The notes under the pieces were generated by a model. It worked only from the letters and a program-made list of their open reading frames with translations, had not been told where the DNA came from and searched no databases. Made by a program: the position numbers and the translations under genes. Positions 27,545-35,391 of a stretch of 64,000 nucleotides of DNA are shown piece by piece. This stretch comes from Bacteroidia bacterium (GTDB lineage Bacteria > Bacteroidota > Bacteroidia > UKL13-3). The stretch spans positions 520,409 through 584,408 of the forward strand of contig JAKLJI010000001.1 of the NCBI GenBank assembly GCA_023151275.1, given 5' to 3'. Positions within the stretch are counted from its first letter, which is position 1; every line of letters begins with the position of its first letter.

Positions 27545-30500
27545 TTATTTAGTTGTTCGTTTTACTTCCACTTCATCGTAGGCTTCAACAAAGTCGCCCT
27601 CGCGTAAGTCGTTGTAATTGTGAATGGTAAGACCGCAATCGTAGCCGCTGTTTACTTCTTTTACGTCGTCTTTGAAACGTTTAAGTGAAGAAAGAGTTCC
27701 GGTGAAGACCACCACACCATCGCGAATCAGGCGGATTTTTGAATTGCGCAGGAGTTTTCCGTCTGTAACCATACAACCGGCAACTGCACCCACTTTGGAA
27801 ATTTTGAAGACCTCGCGGATTTCTGCGTTTCCAAGGATTTTCTCTTCCATTTTTGGAGCCATAAGGCCTTCAATAGCGCCCTTAATTTCTTCGATGGCAT
27901 TATAAATAATGGAGTAAAGACGGATATCGATGCTTTCTGTTTCTGCCAGTTTGCGGGCTTGACCACTTGGGCGAACCTGGAAACCAACGATAATAGCATC
28001 GGAAGCAGAGGCGAGCATAACATCGCTTTCTGAAATCTGACCAACACCTTTATAGATAACAGAAACCTGTACTTCTTCGGTACTTAGGCGGATAAGTGAA
28101 TCACTAAGCGCTTCCACTGAACCGTCCACGTCACCTTTAACAATAACTTTAAGCTCTTTGAAGTTTCCGATGGCCAAACGGCGACCGATTTCATCGAGGG
28201 TAATGTGTTTATGCGTACGGATTCCTTGTTCGCGTTGAAGTTGTTGACGTTTGGTTGCAATTTCACGGGCTTCTGTTTCAGATTTGGTAACAATAAATCT
28301 GTCGCCAGCCTGGGGAGCACCGTCAAAGCCAAGGATTACTACTGGAGTACTTGGTCCGGCTTTGGCCATTTTTTTGCCGCGTTCGTCAAACATGGCTTTT
28401 ACTTTACCGGAGTAAACACCGGCCAGAAGTGGGTCACCAACCTGCATGGTTCCGCTTTGAACCATTACAGTTGTAACAATACCACGTCCTTTATCCAATG
28501 TAGATTCGATAATGCTACCTACTGCACGTTTATTTGGATTTGCTTTTAGTTCAAGCATTTCCGCTTCAATCAATACTTTTTCAAGTAAGAGATCGATATT
28601 GAGTCCTTTTTTGGCTGAAATTTCTTGGCACTGGAATTTTCCACCCCATTCTTCAACAAGAATGTTCATGGCCGAAAGTTGCTCACGGATTTTATCTGGG
28701 TTTGCACCATCGCGGTCAATTTTGTTAAGGGCAAAGATGATTGGAACACCGGCAGCCTGCGCATGCGAAATCGCCTCACGGGTTTGCGGCATTACTGAAT
28801 CATCGGCAGCAATTACAATAATTACAATGTCGGTAATTTTGGCACCACGGGCACGCATGGCGGTAAACGCTTCGTGACCAGGAGTATCGAGGAAGGTGAT
28901 TTTTTTGCCACTTTCCAGTTTCACTTCGTAAGCACCAATGTGCTGGGTGATACCACCGGCCTCACCACTAACTACGTTGGCCCGACGGATATAGTCGAGC
29001 AAGGAAGTTTTACCGTGGTCAACGTGTCCCATTACAGTAACAATAGGGGCACGAGGTTCTAGGCTTTCCGGATCATCGATATCCTCCTCAACGGCTTCTT
29101 GCACTTCGGCAGAAACAAATTCTACTTCAAAACCAAATTCTTCAGCCACAATGGCAATGGTTTCAGCATCTAAGCGCTGATTAATACTTACCATCATTCC
29201 AAGAGACATACAAGCGCCGATAATCTGAGTAATTTGCAGATTCATCATTTTAGCAAGCTCGTTTGCCGTTACAAACTCGGTTACCCTAAGTTTGTTTTGG
29301 TCTGCCTGTTCTAACATTGCAGCTTCTTCGCGTTCATCGGCCATCCTGTCGCGTTTCTGCTTACGGATTTTTGAACGAACTGCACCAATTCCAGGGTTCT
29401 TGCTACCCGGATTCATGCGTGCTAAAGTTGCTTTAAGTTTATCCTGGATTTCTTTTTCGCTAACCTCAGTTTTTTCAGCCGGGTTATTGTTGTTACCTCT
29501 GCCGTAGTTATTTCCACGGTTGAAATTATTTCCACCCGGACGGTTTTGGTTGTTGTAGCCACCCGGACGATTTCCTTGCGGACCGCGATTGTGTTGGCCT
29601 GAATTGTTATTATTGTTATTGGTGTTGGGTTGATTTGGATTAACCCGTTCACCACCTGAACCAGCAACTGGTTTACGTTTGCGTTTTTTCTTTTGGTCCA
29701 GATTGTCGCTTGAAGCAACAGGTTGAGCTTTTTTCGGAGGATCTGCTTTCAGTTCAATTTTACCGAGAACCTTCAAGCCATCCAGTTTTTCGTATTTGGT
29801 TTCAAATACTTTTTGTTCTTCTTCTACCGGAGCAGGAGGAGCAACTTCAGGAGCTTTTGTGTTTTCAATGGGCTCAGCAACCGGAGTTTCAGGTTTTGGA
29901 GTTTCAGCAGGCTTTTCGGCTTTCGGTTCCGGCTTAGGCTCCGGAGCCACTACTTTTTTCTCTTCTTTCTTTCCTTTTGGTTTATTGAGTGCGTTTAGGT
30001 CAATTTTACCTAATACTTTCAATCCGGGCTCTTCTTTTTCCGGTTCTTTCGCAGGTTCTATTTCCTTAACAGGTTCCGGTTTTGGTTCCTCTTTTGCAAC
30101 AGGTTCCGGAGTTGGTTCAGGTTTTGGAATTTCTGCAACAGGCTCTGGTTTTGGTTCCGGAGCAGGTTCCGGTTCGGGAGCTGGTGTTGGCGCTGGTGGA
30201 GGAACTGGCTTGGCTTCTTCCTTCACAGGTTCGGCTGCCTTTTTGGTGTTTACCAATCCTGATTTAATCAGGATACGTTCTTCTTCCTCTTCTTCTTCAA
30301 TAACAAGAGGTTTAGGCTTGGCAATTTCGTGCACCTCATTTTTTGGTTTGATGCGTTCTTTGCCCAGTTTGTTGGCTTCTTGTTTAACTTTTTTCTCCGA
30401 GGAATACTCCGCCAGGAGTAAACTGTATTGATCCTCTGTGATTTTGGTGGTAGGTTTAGCTTCGATGGAGTGCCCTTTTTTTGCTAAAAAGTCCACCAGG

Positions 30501-30568
30501 GTACCCATACCAACGTTGAGTTCCTTTACGACTGCTTGTAATCTAATTTTTCCGGCTGATTCGCTCAT
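27545..30568 (-). CDS. infB: Translation initiation factor IF-2
   Basis: The 1007-residue protein has the GTPase domain with G1 GHVDHGKT (about residue 510), DTPGHEAF and NKIDR, followed by the usual domain II, III and C-terminal fMet-tRNA-binding domains. The N-terminus is unusual in length and composition. A short IF2_N-like helix is followed by a Pro/Glu/Lys tract (~95-260) built from PEPK and PEPV units. After a Lys/Arg patch comes an Asn/Gly/Arg-rich tract (~325-385) with NNNNNN and RGN elements. Such disordered N-termini are common in Bacteroidota IF-2. It is last in rimP-nusA-infB and separated from nusA by 165 bp with RNA structure. Confidence 0.97.
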
Positions 30569-30733: not shown

Positions 30734-31972
30734 CTATTCGAACTCTGCTTCCAGAATTCTGCGTACTTCAAGTACGGTTTCTTCTTCTAATTCTGTTCTA
30801 CGAACCAAATCTTCTATTGGAAGTGCTAACACGCTTTTTGCAGTATCACAACCGATGGCTTTTAGCTCGTCAAGAATCCAGCTGTCAATTTCATCTGAGA
30901 ATTCATCCAGGTCGATATCTTCTTCTTCCTGTTCTGTTTCTCTGTAAACGTCAATTTCGTAACCGGCTAGTTTTCCGGCAAGTTTGATATTGTGTCCACC
31001 TTTACCAATTGCAAGTGAAACTTGATCGGCTTTGATGGTTACTGCCACGCGTTTGCGGTCTTCTTCAATTTTAATTGCAGAAATTTTCGCAGGACTTAAA
31101 GCACGCTGTACCAAGAGAGAAGGATTAGCAGTGAAGTTGATTACGTCGATATTTTCGTTGCGTAATTCTCTCACAATTCCATGGATACGAGAACCTTTCA
31201 TACCAACGCAGGCTCCAACTGGATCAATGCGGTCGTCGTAGCTTTCTACGGCAACTTTAGCACGTTCTCCCGGTTCACGAACAATTTTCTTGATGCTGAT
31301 TAGGCCATCAATAATTTCTGGTACTTCCTGTTCAAACAAACGCTCAAGGAAAACCGGAGAGGTACGCGAAAGCACAATGCGCGGGGTTCCGTTGTGCATT
31401 TCCACTTTCAATACCACTGCACGAATTGGGTCGCCCTTTTTGTAATGGTCGGCAGGAATCATTTCTGCTTTTGGAAGCACCAATTCATTGCCTTCATCAT
31501 CCAATACCATGATTTCTTTTTTCCAAATCTGGTAAACTTCACCGGTGATAATTTCACCCACACGGTCTTTGTACTTCTTGTACAATTCGTCTTTTTCCAG
31601 TTCCAAAATTTTGGAAAGCAGGGTTTGACGTGCAGAAAGTACGGCACGACGTCCAAACTCTTTTAAAATATCTACCTCAGCGGTAACTTCTTCACCAATT
31701 TCAAAATCGGGTTCAATTTTAAGAGCGTCTTTGTAGGCAATTTGCGTATTCGGGTCCTCAACCTCGCCGTCGTGAACGATAGTACGGTTGTGCCAGATTT
31801 CTAAGTCACCACTTTTGTCGTTGATAATTACGTCGAAATTGTCGTCGCTATTGAACTTTTTGCGCAACATACCACGGAATACATCTTCAAGCACCCGTTG
31901 CATGGTGGCACGGTCGATGTTTTTGAACTCTTTGAACTCACTAAATGAGTCAATTAATCCTGAACTGTGCAT
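30734..31972 (-). CDS. nusA: Transcription termination/antitermination factor NusA
   Basis: The 412-residue protein has the N-terminal RNA-polymerase-binding domain (~1-130), an S1 domain (~135-205, VGEIITGEVYQI) and KH1/KH2 (~225-345, VGACVGMKGSRIHGIVRELRNE and GKGGHNIKLAGKLAGYEIDV). A short acidic C-terminal tail with a helix-hairpin-helix-like segment replaces the two acidic repeats of E. coli NusA. NusA binds RNA polymerase and controls pausing and termination. It lies 19 bp after rimP and upstream of infB, the conserved order. The family has autoregulatory precedents, which matters for the hairpins found around this operon. Confidence 0.97.
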   Translation of the reverse strand: MHSSGLIDSFSEFKEFKNIDRATMQRVLEDVFRGMLRKKFNSDDNFDVIINDKSGDLEIWHNRTIVHDGEVEDPNTQIAYKDALKIEPDFEIGEEVTAEVDILKEFGRRAVLSARQTLLSKILELEKDELYKKYKDRVGEIITGEVYQIWKKEIMVLDDEGNELVLPKAEMIPADHYKKGDPIRAVVLKVEMHNGTPRIVLSRTSPVFLERLFEQEVPEIIDGLISIKKIVREPGERAKVAVESYDDRIDPVGACVGMKGSRIHGIVRELRNENIDVINFTANPSLLVQRALSPAKISAIKIEEDRKRVAVTIKADQVSLAIGKGGHNIKLAGKLAGYEIDVYRETEQEEEDIDLDEFSDEIDSWILDELKAIGCDTAKSVLALPIEDLVRRTELEEETVLEVRRILEAEFE

Positions 31973-31991: not shown

Positions 31992-32456
31992 TTAATTGAA
32001 AGATACCAGAACCAATGTTTCTTCTATTTCAGAGTATGGAATTTCTTTTTCGGTAGGGGTTTTGGATTGATAGGCTTTTTTAGGGTCTTTTAGCAAAAGC
32101 TGAATGGACTCGGCATTTACACTCAGCAATTTGCCCACAAGCACGTTTTGACCTTTCAGTTTCACCTGAAGTTCTCTGCCAATATGCTTGGGATACTGCC
32201 TGTTTAGTCTTAGCGGACGATCTACTCCCGGTGATGAAACCTCAAGTGTGTAGGCATTTTCGCTGAAGTCGATTTCATCTAGTTTTTCAGAGAGAAAACG
32301 GTTGAATAAGCGACACTGTTCAATGGTTAAAGCGCCATCACTATCTAAAAAAACGGAAAGTTTGCCTGAGTTTACCTTGTATTCGGTTTCTACCACAAAT
32401 ACATCGGAGGGTAAAAATTCTGCACCCCAGGCCTTAATTTGTTCTGCTAACTGCAT
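31992..32456 (-). CDS. rimP: Ribosome maturation factor RimP
   Basis: I choose the ATG at 32456 (MQLAEQIKAWGAEFLPSDVF); an in-frame TTG three codons upstream falls against the poly-A run of a terminator-like hairpin. The 154-residue protein has the RimP core with VFLDSDGALTIEQCRLFNRFLSE and YTLEVSSPGVDRPLR, needed for 30S subunit maturation. It is the first gene of rimP-nusA-infB. A promoter-like pair lies at 32506-32536, so the mRNA would begin with the hairpin described at 32464-32491. Confidence 0.94.
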   Translation of the reverse strand: MQLAEQIKAWGAEFLPSDVFVVETEYKVNSGKLSVFLDSDGALTIEQCRLFNRFLSEKLDEIDFSENAYTLEVSSPGVDRPLRLNRQYPKHIGRELQVKLKGQNVLVGKLLSVNAESIQLLLKDPKKAYQSKTPTEKEIPYSEIEETLVLVSFN

Positions 32457-32463
32457 AAGATTC

Positions 32464-32491
32464 AAAAAAAGAGGGGACTTTCGGTCCCCTC
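32464..32491 (-). terminator. Terminator-like hairpin directly before rimP
   Basis: GAGGGGAC and GTCCCCTC form an 8-bp perfect stem with a 5-nt loop, followed on the minus strand by seven U, only 7 nt before the rimP ATG. It could end the glycosyltransferase transcript (stop at 32540). Because the best rimP promoter lies upstream of it, it may also act as an attenuator in the rimP-nusA-infB leader. Confidence 0.85.
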
Positions 32492-32505
32492 ATCTAATTC
32501 GCTCA

Positions 32506-32536
32506 CGAAGATAATGTAAAATTTTCCAAATGCAAA
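32506..32536 (-). promoter_or_regulatory. Probable rimP-nusA-infB promoter
   Basis: On the minus strand TTTG (32536-32533) is followed after exactly 19 nt by TATCTTCG (32513-32506), a one-mismatch TAnnTTTG. This matches the -33/-7 spacing known for Bacteroidota sigma-ABfr promoters. Transcription would start near 32500, about 45 nt before the rimP ATG and upstream of the terminator-like hairpin. Confidence 0.5.
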
Positions 32537-32539
32537 TTT

Positions 32540-33445
32540 TCAGCCAATCAGTTCTTTACGAACTTTGGCCAACATTCCGAGTTTGTACAAATCAAAACAG
32601 CACAATGGCAATGCAGCTTGTAGGAGTTTTCGGCGAAGTGGTGATTCAATCCAGGTGAAGATGCCCATAAATAGGGGTAATAAACCTGTAGTTTTCAGTT
32701 GTCGGTAAAATTTCAGTAGGCGGATTCCCCTTTCAAATTCTCCGTCCTGATTGAGCAATTGAGCAACATGATTTAAGTTTCGAATGCCTTGCTCGGTTTT
32801 TTGAAGGTAAATTTGGTTTTGTTCGGTATCTGTAATCCGAACCGGATTATCCAGATGTGTAATGGCAATTCCTTTTTGGTAAAGTCGAAAGGCAAAAAGT
32901 GTATCCTCGTGGCCATATCCTGAAAGCCTTTCTTCAAACTTTATGCGTTCAAAAACCGCTCGTTTGATGCAGAAATTGCTGGGCATAAAGCTCTTCCAGC
33001 CGCAATTCCTTCGTACGTCCAAACTTCTACTTTCGCGTTCTCGTCCAACCTTCCATTTCAGCTGCTCCGATTGCTTTGGTGGAGTATCGGGATATATATG
33101 ACCGCCGCAACTAACAACAGCCGCATCAGCTATGTGAAGATAGTTTCTTAAAAAGGATTCGGAAACTGGGAGAATATCGCAATCCACAAAAAGCAAGTTT
33201 TCAGCTTGCGTATGATTCAAAAATTGGTTTCGGATGCCAGATCGACCCAAATTGGTTTTCAGTTCAACATAGGTTGCACACAAAGGGCGAATGGCTTCAT
33301 TCGTTGCTCGGATCTCCTGCGATGAGGCATCATCCAAAATACAGATTTCTACCGGCAGTTTGTTTTGCTCAATTTCATGATGTAGCTGCCGAACCAAAGC
33401 GCAAACATCTACCTGATAAACGGGAATACAAACTGCAAGTTTCAT
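32540..33445 (-). CDS. Family 2 glycosyltransferase (GT-A)
   Basis: The 301-residue enzyme has the GT2 N-terminus (LAVCIPVYQVDVCALVRQLH), an ILDDAS nucleotide-binding strand and the DxD-like motif in NLLFVDCDILP (~96), followed by GYGHEDTLFAFRL, the usual acceptor-loop ED. No membrane helix is evident, so it is cytoplasmic or peripheral. Donor and acceptor are unknown. It starts 1 nt after the stop of the flavoprotein gene, so the pair forms one operon, possibly for glycolipid or quinone-associated envelope chemistry. It ends just before the rimP promoter region. Confidence 0.88.
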   Translation of the reverse strand: MKLAVCIPVYQVDVCALVRQLHHEIEQNKLPVEICILDDASSQEIRATNEAIRPLCATYVELKTNLGRSGIRNQFLNHTQAENLLFVDCDILPVSESFLRNYLHIADAAVVSCGGHIYPDTPPKQSEQLKWKVGRERESRSLDVRRNCGWKSFMPSNFCIKRAVFERIKFEERLSGYGHEDTLFAFRLYQKGIAITHLDNPVRITDTEQNQIYLQKTEQGIRNLNHVAQLLNQDGEFERGIRLLKFYRQLKTTGLLPLFMGIFTWIESPLRRKLLQAALPLCCFDLYKLGMLAKVRKELIG

Positions 33446-34695: not shown

Positions 34696-34728
34696 TAAAA
34701 AGAAAGGCTGATTGCATTCAATCAGCCT
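34696..34728 (-). terminator. Terminator hairpin abutting the flavoprotein start
   Basis: AGGCTGATTG (34705-34714) and CAATCAGCCT (34719-34728) form a perfect 10-bp stem with a CATT loop. The minus-strand RNA continues UUUCUUUUUAU into the ATG at 34694. It can terminate the small barrel gene at 34801. A -7-like box (TATTTTCG, 34737-34730) directly upstream would place the hairpin at the 5' end of the next mRNA. Confidence 0.75.
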
Positions 34729-34729
34729 C

Positions 34730-34737
34730 CGAAAATA
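34730..34737 (-). promoter_or_regulatory. Possible -7 box TATTTTCG of the flavoprotein operon
   Basis: A one-mismatch TAnnTTTG, 35 nt before the ATG at 34694 and immediately before the hairpin. No well-spaced TTTG -33 element is seen: the nearest is about 25 nt away. Confidence 0.35.
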
Positions 34738-34800: not shown

Positions 34801-35391
34801 TTATTGAATAAGACGGTAAAAAACACCGGCATTTACATAGCCGTTGTAGCCATATCCCAAATCACCATAAACGCCCAATTTTTCGCCATATCTAACTCCA
34901 AGTAGAGTGACATGGTAAGCAGGCAGGTAGTCTTCACCTTTTTTGTTGGTATCCAGGTTTTTTCCGCGTAAGTAGCTTACGCCAAAATGCAAGCCGCTGT
35001 AGATGTTTAGTTTAGGATTGTCAAGGTATTGGTAGCTTACATTTCCCATCAGGGTAAAAAAGTGAAAATCTGATTTTTCCGATGTTCCGTTGGCATATTG
35101 CATTTCAGATTGACAGGCTGCATACGAAAAATCGGCTCCCAAGGTGATGTGTTTGGTATCGTACATGGTATAGGCCAAACGAATTGGACCCAATGGACTA
35201 AAAGTTTTCTTGGTGTTTTCACCAATCGTTCCCGAAAATTTAGTTTCAACAAAATTGCTGATGTCGCGAACCTGAATTTCTTGCCTTCCCAGTACACCAT
35301 AACCCAGACTGAATTCCCGGATTTGGGCATGTGAATTTAAGTGAAAGAGTGTGATAATCAGCGTAGCTACAAGTGTTATGCGTGTTTTCAT
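34801..35391 (-). CDS. Small outer-membrane beta-barrel protein (OmpX/OmpW-like)
   Basis: A 196-residue protein with a signal peptide (MKTRITLVATLIITLFHLNSHA, cut before Q) and short alternating strands rich in Tyr, Gly and Phe. It has LGYGVLGRQE near the N-terminus and ends NAGVFYRLIQ. The size and pattern suit an eight-stranded barrel of the porin-like or OMP_b-brl type. The function is unknown. A perfect -7 box lies 4 nt before the ATG, so the mRNA should be practically leaderless. A terminator-like hairpin follows at 34705-34728. Confidence 0.78.
   Translation of the reverse strand: MKTRITLVATLIITLFHLNSHAQIREFSLGYGVLGRQEIQVRDISNFVETKFSGTIGENTKKTFSPLGPIRLAYTMYDTKHITLGADFSYAACQSEMQYANGTSEKSDFHFFTLMGNVSYQYLDNPKLNIYSGLHFGVSYLRGKNLDTNKKGEDYLPAYHVTLLGVRYGEKLGVYGDLGYGYNGYVNAGVFYRLIQ

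Follow-up and report, generated by a model that had tools for sequence, protein, structure and literature searches.

The rimP-leader has been described as a terminator located 4-130 nucleotides (nt) before the gene, in its general form without an antiterminator, for which NusA was suggested as the regulator (Naville & Gautheret, 2010; PMC2965389). In B. subtilis, the level of NusA is controlled in the 5' leader of the nusA operon, where NusA stimulates intrinsic termination (Mondal et al., 2016, as summarized in the review PMC12288461), and in S. agalactiae transcription of the rimP-nusA-infB leader is reported to end 31 nt after the transcription start site at a predicted terminator, with NusA feedback proposed (PMC4448216). 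Equally, two terminators, t1 and t2, have been described upstream of rimP in E. coli. In F. psychrophilum, rimP has been noted to possess a 5' element that is transcribed and structured, is conserved in other genera of the Flavobacteriaceae and has no Rfam hit (PMC9723704). The present analysis addresses a terminator-like hairpin between the promoter and the start codon of rimP in a 64,000-nt stretch of DNA from a Bacteroidota genome (G000:C11:520409-584408), which as a whole is called the window.

The hairpin in the window resembles the rimP-leader as described, as a putative intrinsic terminator with a G-rich 5' arm, a C-rich 3' arm and a U-stretch is located in the predicted leader of rimP-nusA-infB (PMC2965389). 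The arms GGGGAC...GTCCCC follow the GGGc...gCCC pattern of the rimP-leader loosely, with GGG, CCC and the loop-closing C-G present and extra pairs in between; the 7 nt from the seven-base U-run (U7) to the ATG fall into the range of 4-130 nt, and the predicted leader appears too short for a competing fold, in line with a form without an antiterminator. On the other hand, the arms here are GGGGAC/GTCCCC and not GGGc/gCCC, a promoter element lies 6-30 nt 5' of the stem and several lineages outside the Bacteroidia carry inverted arms; the name 'Bacteroidetes' is absent from the main text of that work (PMC2965389). The leader of the B. subtilis nusA operon is given as ~180 nt (PMC2965389) in comparison to the ~45 nt predicted here. 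The S. agalactiae leader has nearly the same geometry, but comes from a Firmicute, and its RNA ends have been measured while they are predicted here (PMC4448216). The F. psychrophilum element stems from the same phylum, but is mentioned in one parenthesis, without a mechanism or an extent beyond the family (PMC9723704). The Rfam model RF01770 gave no match near rimP in the window at E up to 5 and did not exceed its gathering score in any of 61 Bacteroidota genomes, with the sub-threshold match in the genome of the window located away from rimP; among 14 control genomes, only E. coli reached the cut-off. Save for the one-line mention in F. psychrophilum, a search in a library of openly licensed papers did not bring up a rimP attenuator described for the Bacteroidota as a whole. 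While the kind of element is already known, its phylum-wide extent, the fixed geometry of promoter and hairpin and the conservation of the stem sequence in a group that RF01770 misses are new.

Results

The hairpin is likely to be a promoter-proximal attenuator of the rimP-nusA-infB operon, most probably controlled by NusA. The arrangement of the sequence, its conservation, the covariation of the base pairs and the independence from the orientation of the upstream gene are shown directly, whereas we infer where transcription starts, that it terminates in vivo and that NusA is in control. RimP is present in 59 of 64 genomes of the family and in 289 of 296 genomes of the phylum. The survey of upstream regions comprised 139 rimP loci, 30 and 29 from two RimP search listings and 80 hand-picked from the same listings, with one or two loci for most genera; the set under-represents genomes in which RimP scores weakly. 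A hairpin was scored as a stem with a T-run reaching a score of at least 10, the T-rich tail being part of the rule. Such a hairpin precedes rimP in 132 of the 139 loci as compared to 1.9% of 695 dinucleotide shuffles, with 33/33 loci in the family, 46/47 in the class and 53/59 in the remaining phylum, corresponding to 98 of 105 genera and 36 of 41 families. Conservation in related genomes, which the preliminary description of this locus had named as a check on its proposal of a leader terminator, has thus been borne out. Upon identical scoring, ftsH leaders from the same phylum showed a hairpin in 1 of 30 cases and the gene starts of the window in 4 of 47, rimP being among the four. The distance from stem to start codon varies widely and exceeds 40 nt in some loci. 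As the protein alignment served to assign the start codons, such distances are only approximate for loci outside the family.

The order of promoter, hairpin and ATG is kept across the phylum. An exact TAnnTTTG occurs within 50 nt 5' of the stem in 99 of the 132 hairpin-bearing loci (76 of 79 for family and class combined) and in 2, 9, 13 and 10 loci in the next four, more distal 50-nt bins. In these 99 loci, the element is separated from the stem by 6-30 nt. With the consensus -7 box of the Bacteroidota placed at -12 to -5 (PMC9723704), terminated RNAs of 28-59 nt with a median of 45 nt are predicted for the same loci. The conserved promoter element 5' of the stem makes it likely that the terminator resides within the operon's own transcript. 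In the window, a gap of 14 nt separates TATCTTCG (32506) from the start of the stem (32491) on the minus strand; the same placement of the box would put +1 at ~32501, the stem from ~+11, the end of the U-run at ~+38 and the ATG at ~+46.

The individual parts of the arrangement in the window, a TTTG-19-TATCTTCG promoter followed by an 8-base-pair (bp) stem, U7 and 7 nt to the ATG, are found in the sequence as they had been described previously (Table 1). Downstream of U7, 7 nt (GAATCTT) lead to the rimP ATG at 32456, with 14 nt between stem and ATG. A terminator scan independently recovered the hairpin with 8 pairs, 6 of them G-C, and the leader folds with an energy of -18.1 kcal/mol (z -2.56), with 3 of 200 shuffles being equally stable. 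As terminator-like matches in a 12-kilobase stretch are near the chance level (18 found versus 14.7 expected), the match of the scan alone is weak proof and the significance derives from conservation. Known RNAs and riboswitches gave only sub-threshold Rfam matches (E 1.4-2.6), which were judged as chance, and a riboswitch or other known RNA was rejected as an explanation on these grounds. Equally rejected, by eye, was a leaderless rimP start with the U-run as the -7 box, as position 2 of TTTTTTTG is not an A and a TTTG at the right distance is missing. A longer rimP with a TTG start at 32465, which falls at the U-run, is unlikely.

Conservation is concentrated in the stem. In the loci of the family, the six-base arms show 94-95% pairwise identity versus 38% in the 20 nt before and 39% in the 15 nt after the hairpin, and among the 33 loci paired changes occur five times as GGAGAC/GTCTCC and once as GAGGGC/GTCCTC. 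Covariation was assessed with 42 of the 62 distinct stems of family and class, chosen by the authors from 79 hairpin-bearing loci. In this alignment, 92.4% of the cells are paired, both partners vary in 6 of the 8 pairs, and 30 cells are changed on both sides in comparison to 11.5 in shuffles, none of 500 shuffles reaching as high; a shift of the pairing partner by 1-3 columns reduces paired cells to 44-74%. Some rows are offset by one base in the MAFFT alignment, an effect that works against these counts. The core pattern GGGGAC-N3..8-GTCCCC is present in 46 of 62 family genomes with one or two copies per genome, and 45 of its 50 sites abut rimP upon comparison by eye; in the genome of the window, the pattern occurs once, at rimP. 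The five sites not adjoining a recognized rimP are G002:C2:2086, G015:C6:48481, G026:C41:27214, G027:C218:1539 and G038:C228:9767. At three of these five (L032, L041, L056), tblastn gave no match to RimP, and RimP was not found in G038 in the family search.

Outside the class, the sequence of the stem differs. The G-rich 5' arm of the window is shared by 33/33 hairpin-bearing loci of the family and 45/46 of the class, but by only 26/53 elsewhere in the phylum, where the 5' arm is C-rich in another 26/53. Stem sequence and polarity thus differ outside the class, which indicates that the terminator persists although the bases that form it are exchanged. Leaders with reversed polarity at the same place read TCGCCC...GGGCGA or AAGTCCCGCC...GCGGGACTT (L105-L107, L109-L115, L118-L125, L152-L153, L159). 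By-eye reading of named genomes covered 29 of 80 loci inside and outside of the Bacteroidota, and a GGG...CCC hairpin 5' of rimP was seen in Nitrospira, Zixibacteria, KSB1, Dyella, Shewanella and Selenomonas (L217, L219, L224, L226, L235, L241, L243); a terminator in the rimP leader may be very widespread in bacteria.

Table 1. Features of the rimP locus in the window, all encoded on the minus strand
Feature	Position	Strand	Description	Basis
Predicted Bacteroidota primary-sigma promoter	32506..32536	-	TTTG 32536..32533, 19-nt spacer, TATCTTCG -7 element 32513..32506	Sequence
Putative attenuator hairpin	32471..32491	-	8-bp stem GAGGGGAC/GTCCCCTC, loop CGAAA	Sequence, terminator scan, folding
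U7 tract of putative intrinsic terminator	32464..32470	-		Sequence, terminator scan; T-rich tail is part of the survey scoring rule
Predicted 45-nt leader	32457..32501	-	Predicted +1 to base preceding ATG	-12 to -5 placement of the -7 box
rimP	31992..32456	-	ATG 32456	Pfam RimP_N and DUF150_C; N-terminus aligns with family members
nusA	30734..31972	-	19 nt 3' of rimP	NusA_N, S1 and KH domains (Pfam)
infB (IF-2)	27545..30568	-		Pfam
Glycosyltransferase family 2 gene	32540..33445	-	5' of rimP, co-directional; ends just short of the rimP promoter	Pfam

A second strong terminator-like hairpin with 12 pairs is located at 34703-34730 on the minus strand of the window, at the start of an open reading frame (ORF) for a flavin adenine dinucleotide (FAD)-dependent oxidoreductase, for which TTG 34721 is listed as the start and a later start is likely. 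This hairpin is probably the terminator of the gene at 34801..35391, ~71 nt past the stop of that gene.

Discussion

In the proposed mechanism, transcription would start ~10 nt before the stem, and the polymerase would produce the G-rich arm followed by the C-rich arm. At the U-run, either a leader RNA of ~38-45 nt would be released or read-through into rimP-nusA-infB would take place, and a protein that acts on the stem and on the polymerase paused there would determine the fraction of read-through. Control by a protein seems most likely as a leader of 45 nt is too short for an alternative antiterminator fold. NusA, a product of the operon itself, would be the best candidate in view of the precedents in B. 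subtilis and S. agalactiae, of t1 and t2 in E. coli and of the proposal for the rimP-leader; more NusA would cause more termination, a negative feedback. Autoregulation by NusA is plausible at this locus.

The hairpin might instead be the ordinary 3' terminator of the glycosyltransferase gene beside rimP, with rimP transcribed from elsewhere. This neighbour is read in the same direction as rimP, and the 48 nt from its end to the stem would be usual for a terminator; with a simple ORF rule the upstream neighbour is co-directional in 76 of the 139 surveyed loci, divergent in 62 and undecided in one. However, the hairpin is kept not only in 75/76 co-directional and in the one undecided locus, but also in 56/62 divergent loci, and in 40/42 loci with a clearly divergent neighbour under a strict rule (a divergent ORF of at least 200 amino acids at a distance of 30 nt or more); three same-genus genomes (G025-G027) have a divergent neighbour by the simple rule and the same hairpin. 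As the hairpin is retained beside divergent genes, ending an upstream transcript is not its general role, and a simple terminator of the upstream gene was rejected. In addition, 99 of the 132 hairpin-bearing loci have a promoter element 5' of the stem and the arms are ~94% identical where the flanks are not, and we consider this explanation very improbable. The preliminary description had considered that the hairpin only ends the glycosyltransferase transcript, against which the 40/42 divergent loci and the three same-genus genomes argue; its placement of the hairpin in the leader and its attenuator reading gain strong support from the conserved order of promoter, hairpin and ATG and from the retention beside divergent neighbours. 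In the window, the hairpin may end glycosyltransferase transcripts in addition to its proposed role in the leader. A stem at the 5' end can also protect an mRNA, and with the stem ending 14 nt and U7 ending 7 nt before the ATG in the window, the hairpin could act mainly on translation or mRNA stability, through the ribosome-binding region or by closing off the 5' end, with the U-run being incidental. The T-run accompanies the stem in 132/139 loci, though, and the widely varying distance from stem to start codon fits termination better than occlusion, which leaves an effect mainly on translation or stability improbable.

Closer to the favoured reading is the alternative that attenuation is real, but the controller is not NusA. 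RimP, NusG or nucleotide levels could take this role, or a fixed fraction of termination could set the output of the operon. No antiterminator is visible in the leader, the ~10 nt that precede the stem in the predicted leader would provide little RNA for the KH domains of NusA, and feedback by RimP has also been raised as a possibility (PMC2965389). On the other hand, NusA can act through a hairpin in the exit channel. In B. subtilis, NusA is reported to stimulate the terminator in the leader of the operon that encodes it (PMC12288461). A controller other than NusA is a possibility to be taken seriously, if not the one we would expect.

Several observations weigh against an attenuator under NusA control. 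A qualifying hairpin was not found in 7 of the 139 rimP loci. The antisense strand also scores in 56/139 loci, so strand specificity is not absolute, although this is largely due to A-runs before the stem that mirror the T-run, and the window locus does not score. The -7 element of the window, TATCTTCG, is one base off the TAnnTTTG consensus and was scored as a miss by a motif search for exact TAnnTTTG only; in same-genus relatives, TACTTTTG is located at almost the same distance from the stem. Furthermore, the reversed polarity of the arms in several lineages outside the Bacteroidia means that a single sequence-specific reader cannot explain all loci. Within the family, the ~94% identity of the arms between free flanks is more than pairing alone would call for, as pairing would allow many stems. 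The Bacteroidota stem could on this basis be a protein-read terminator, with NusA, RimP or the polymerase possibly reading the stem sequence during promoter exit (+11 to +38), a speculative idea which we regard as rather doubtful. If true, the terminator choice would fall into the phase of promoter escape, when sigma may still be bound.

Conclusions

With this locus, an autoregulatory leader that is known in, or has been proposed for, Firmicutes and Gammaproteobacteria would be extended to most of the Bacteroidota, a phylum whose sigma factor is unusual and which makes little use of Shine-Dalgarno sequences. Its form is compact, with promoter, hairpin, U-run and start codon within ~80 bp, and can serve as a testable case for how a terminator in the first 40 nt of a transcript interacts with RNA polymerase and NusA. 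The Rfam rimP model misses this widespread branch, and a broader model could be built. The compact geometry of promoter and hairpin and the strong conservation of the stem are features worth following. In a gene set as essential as rimP, nusA and infB, the leader terminator probably lets NusA limit its own production.
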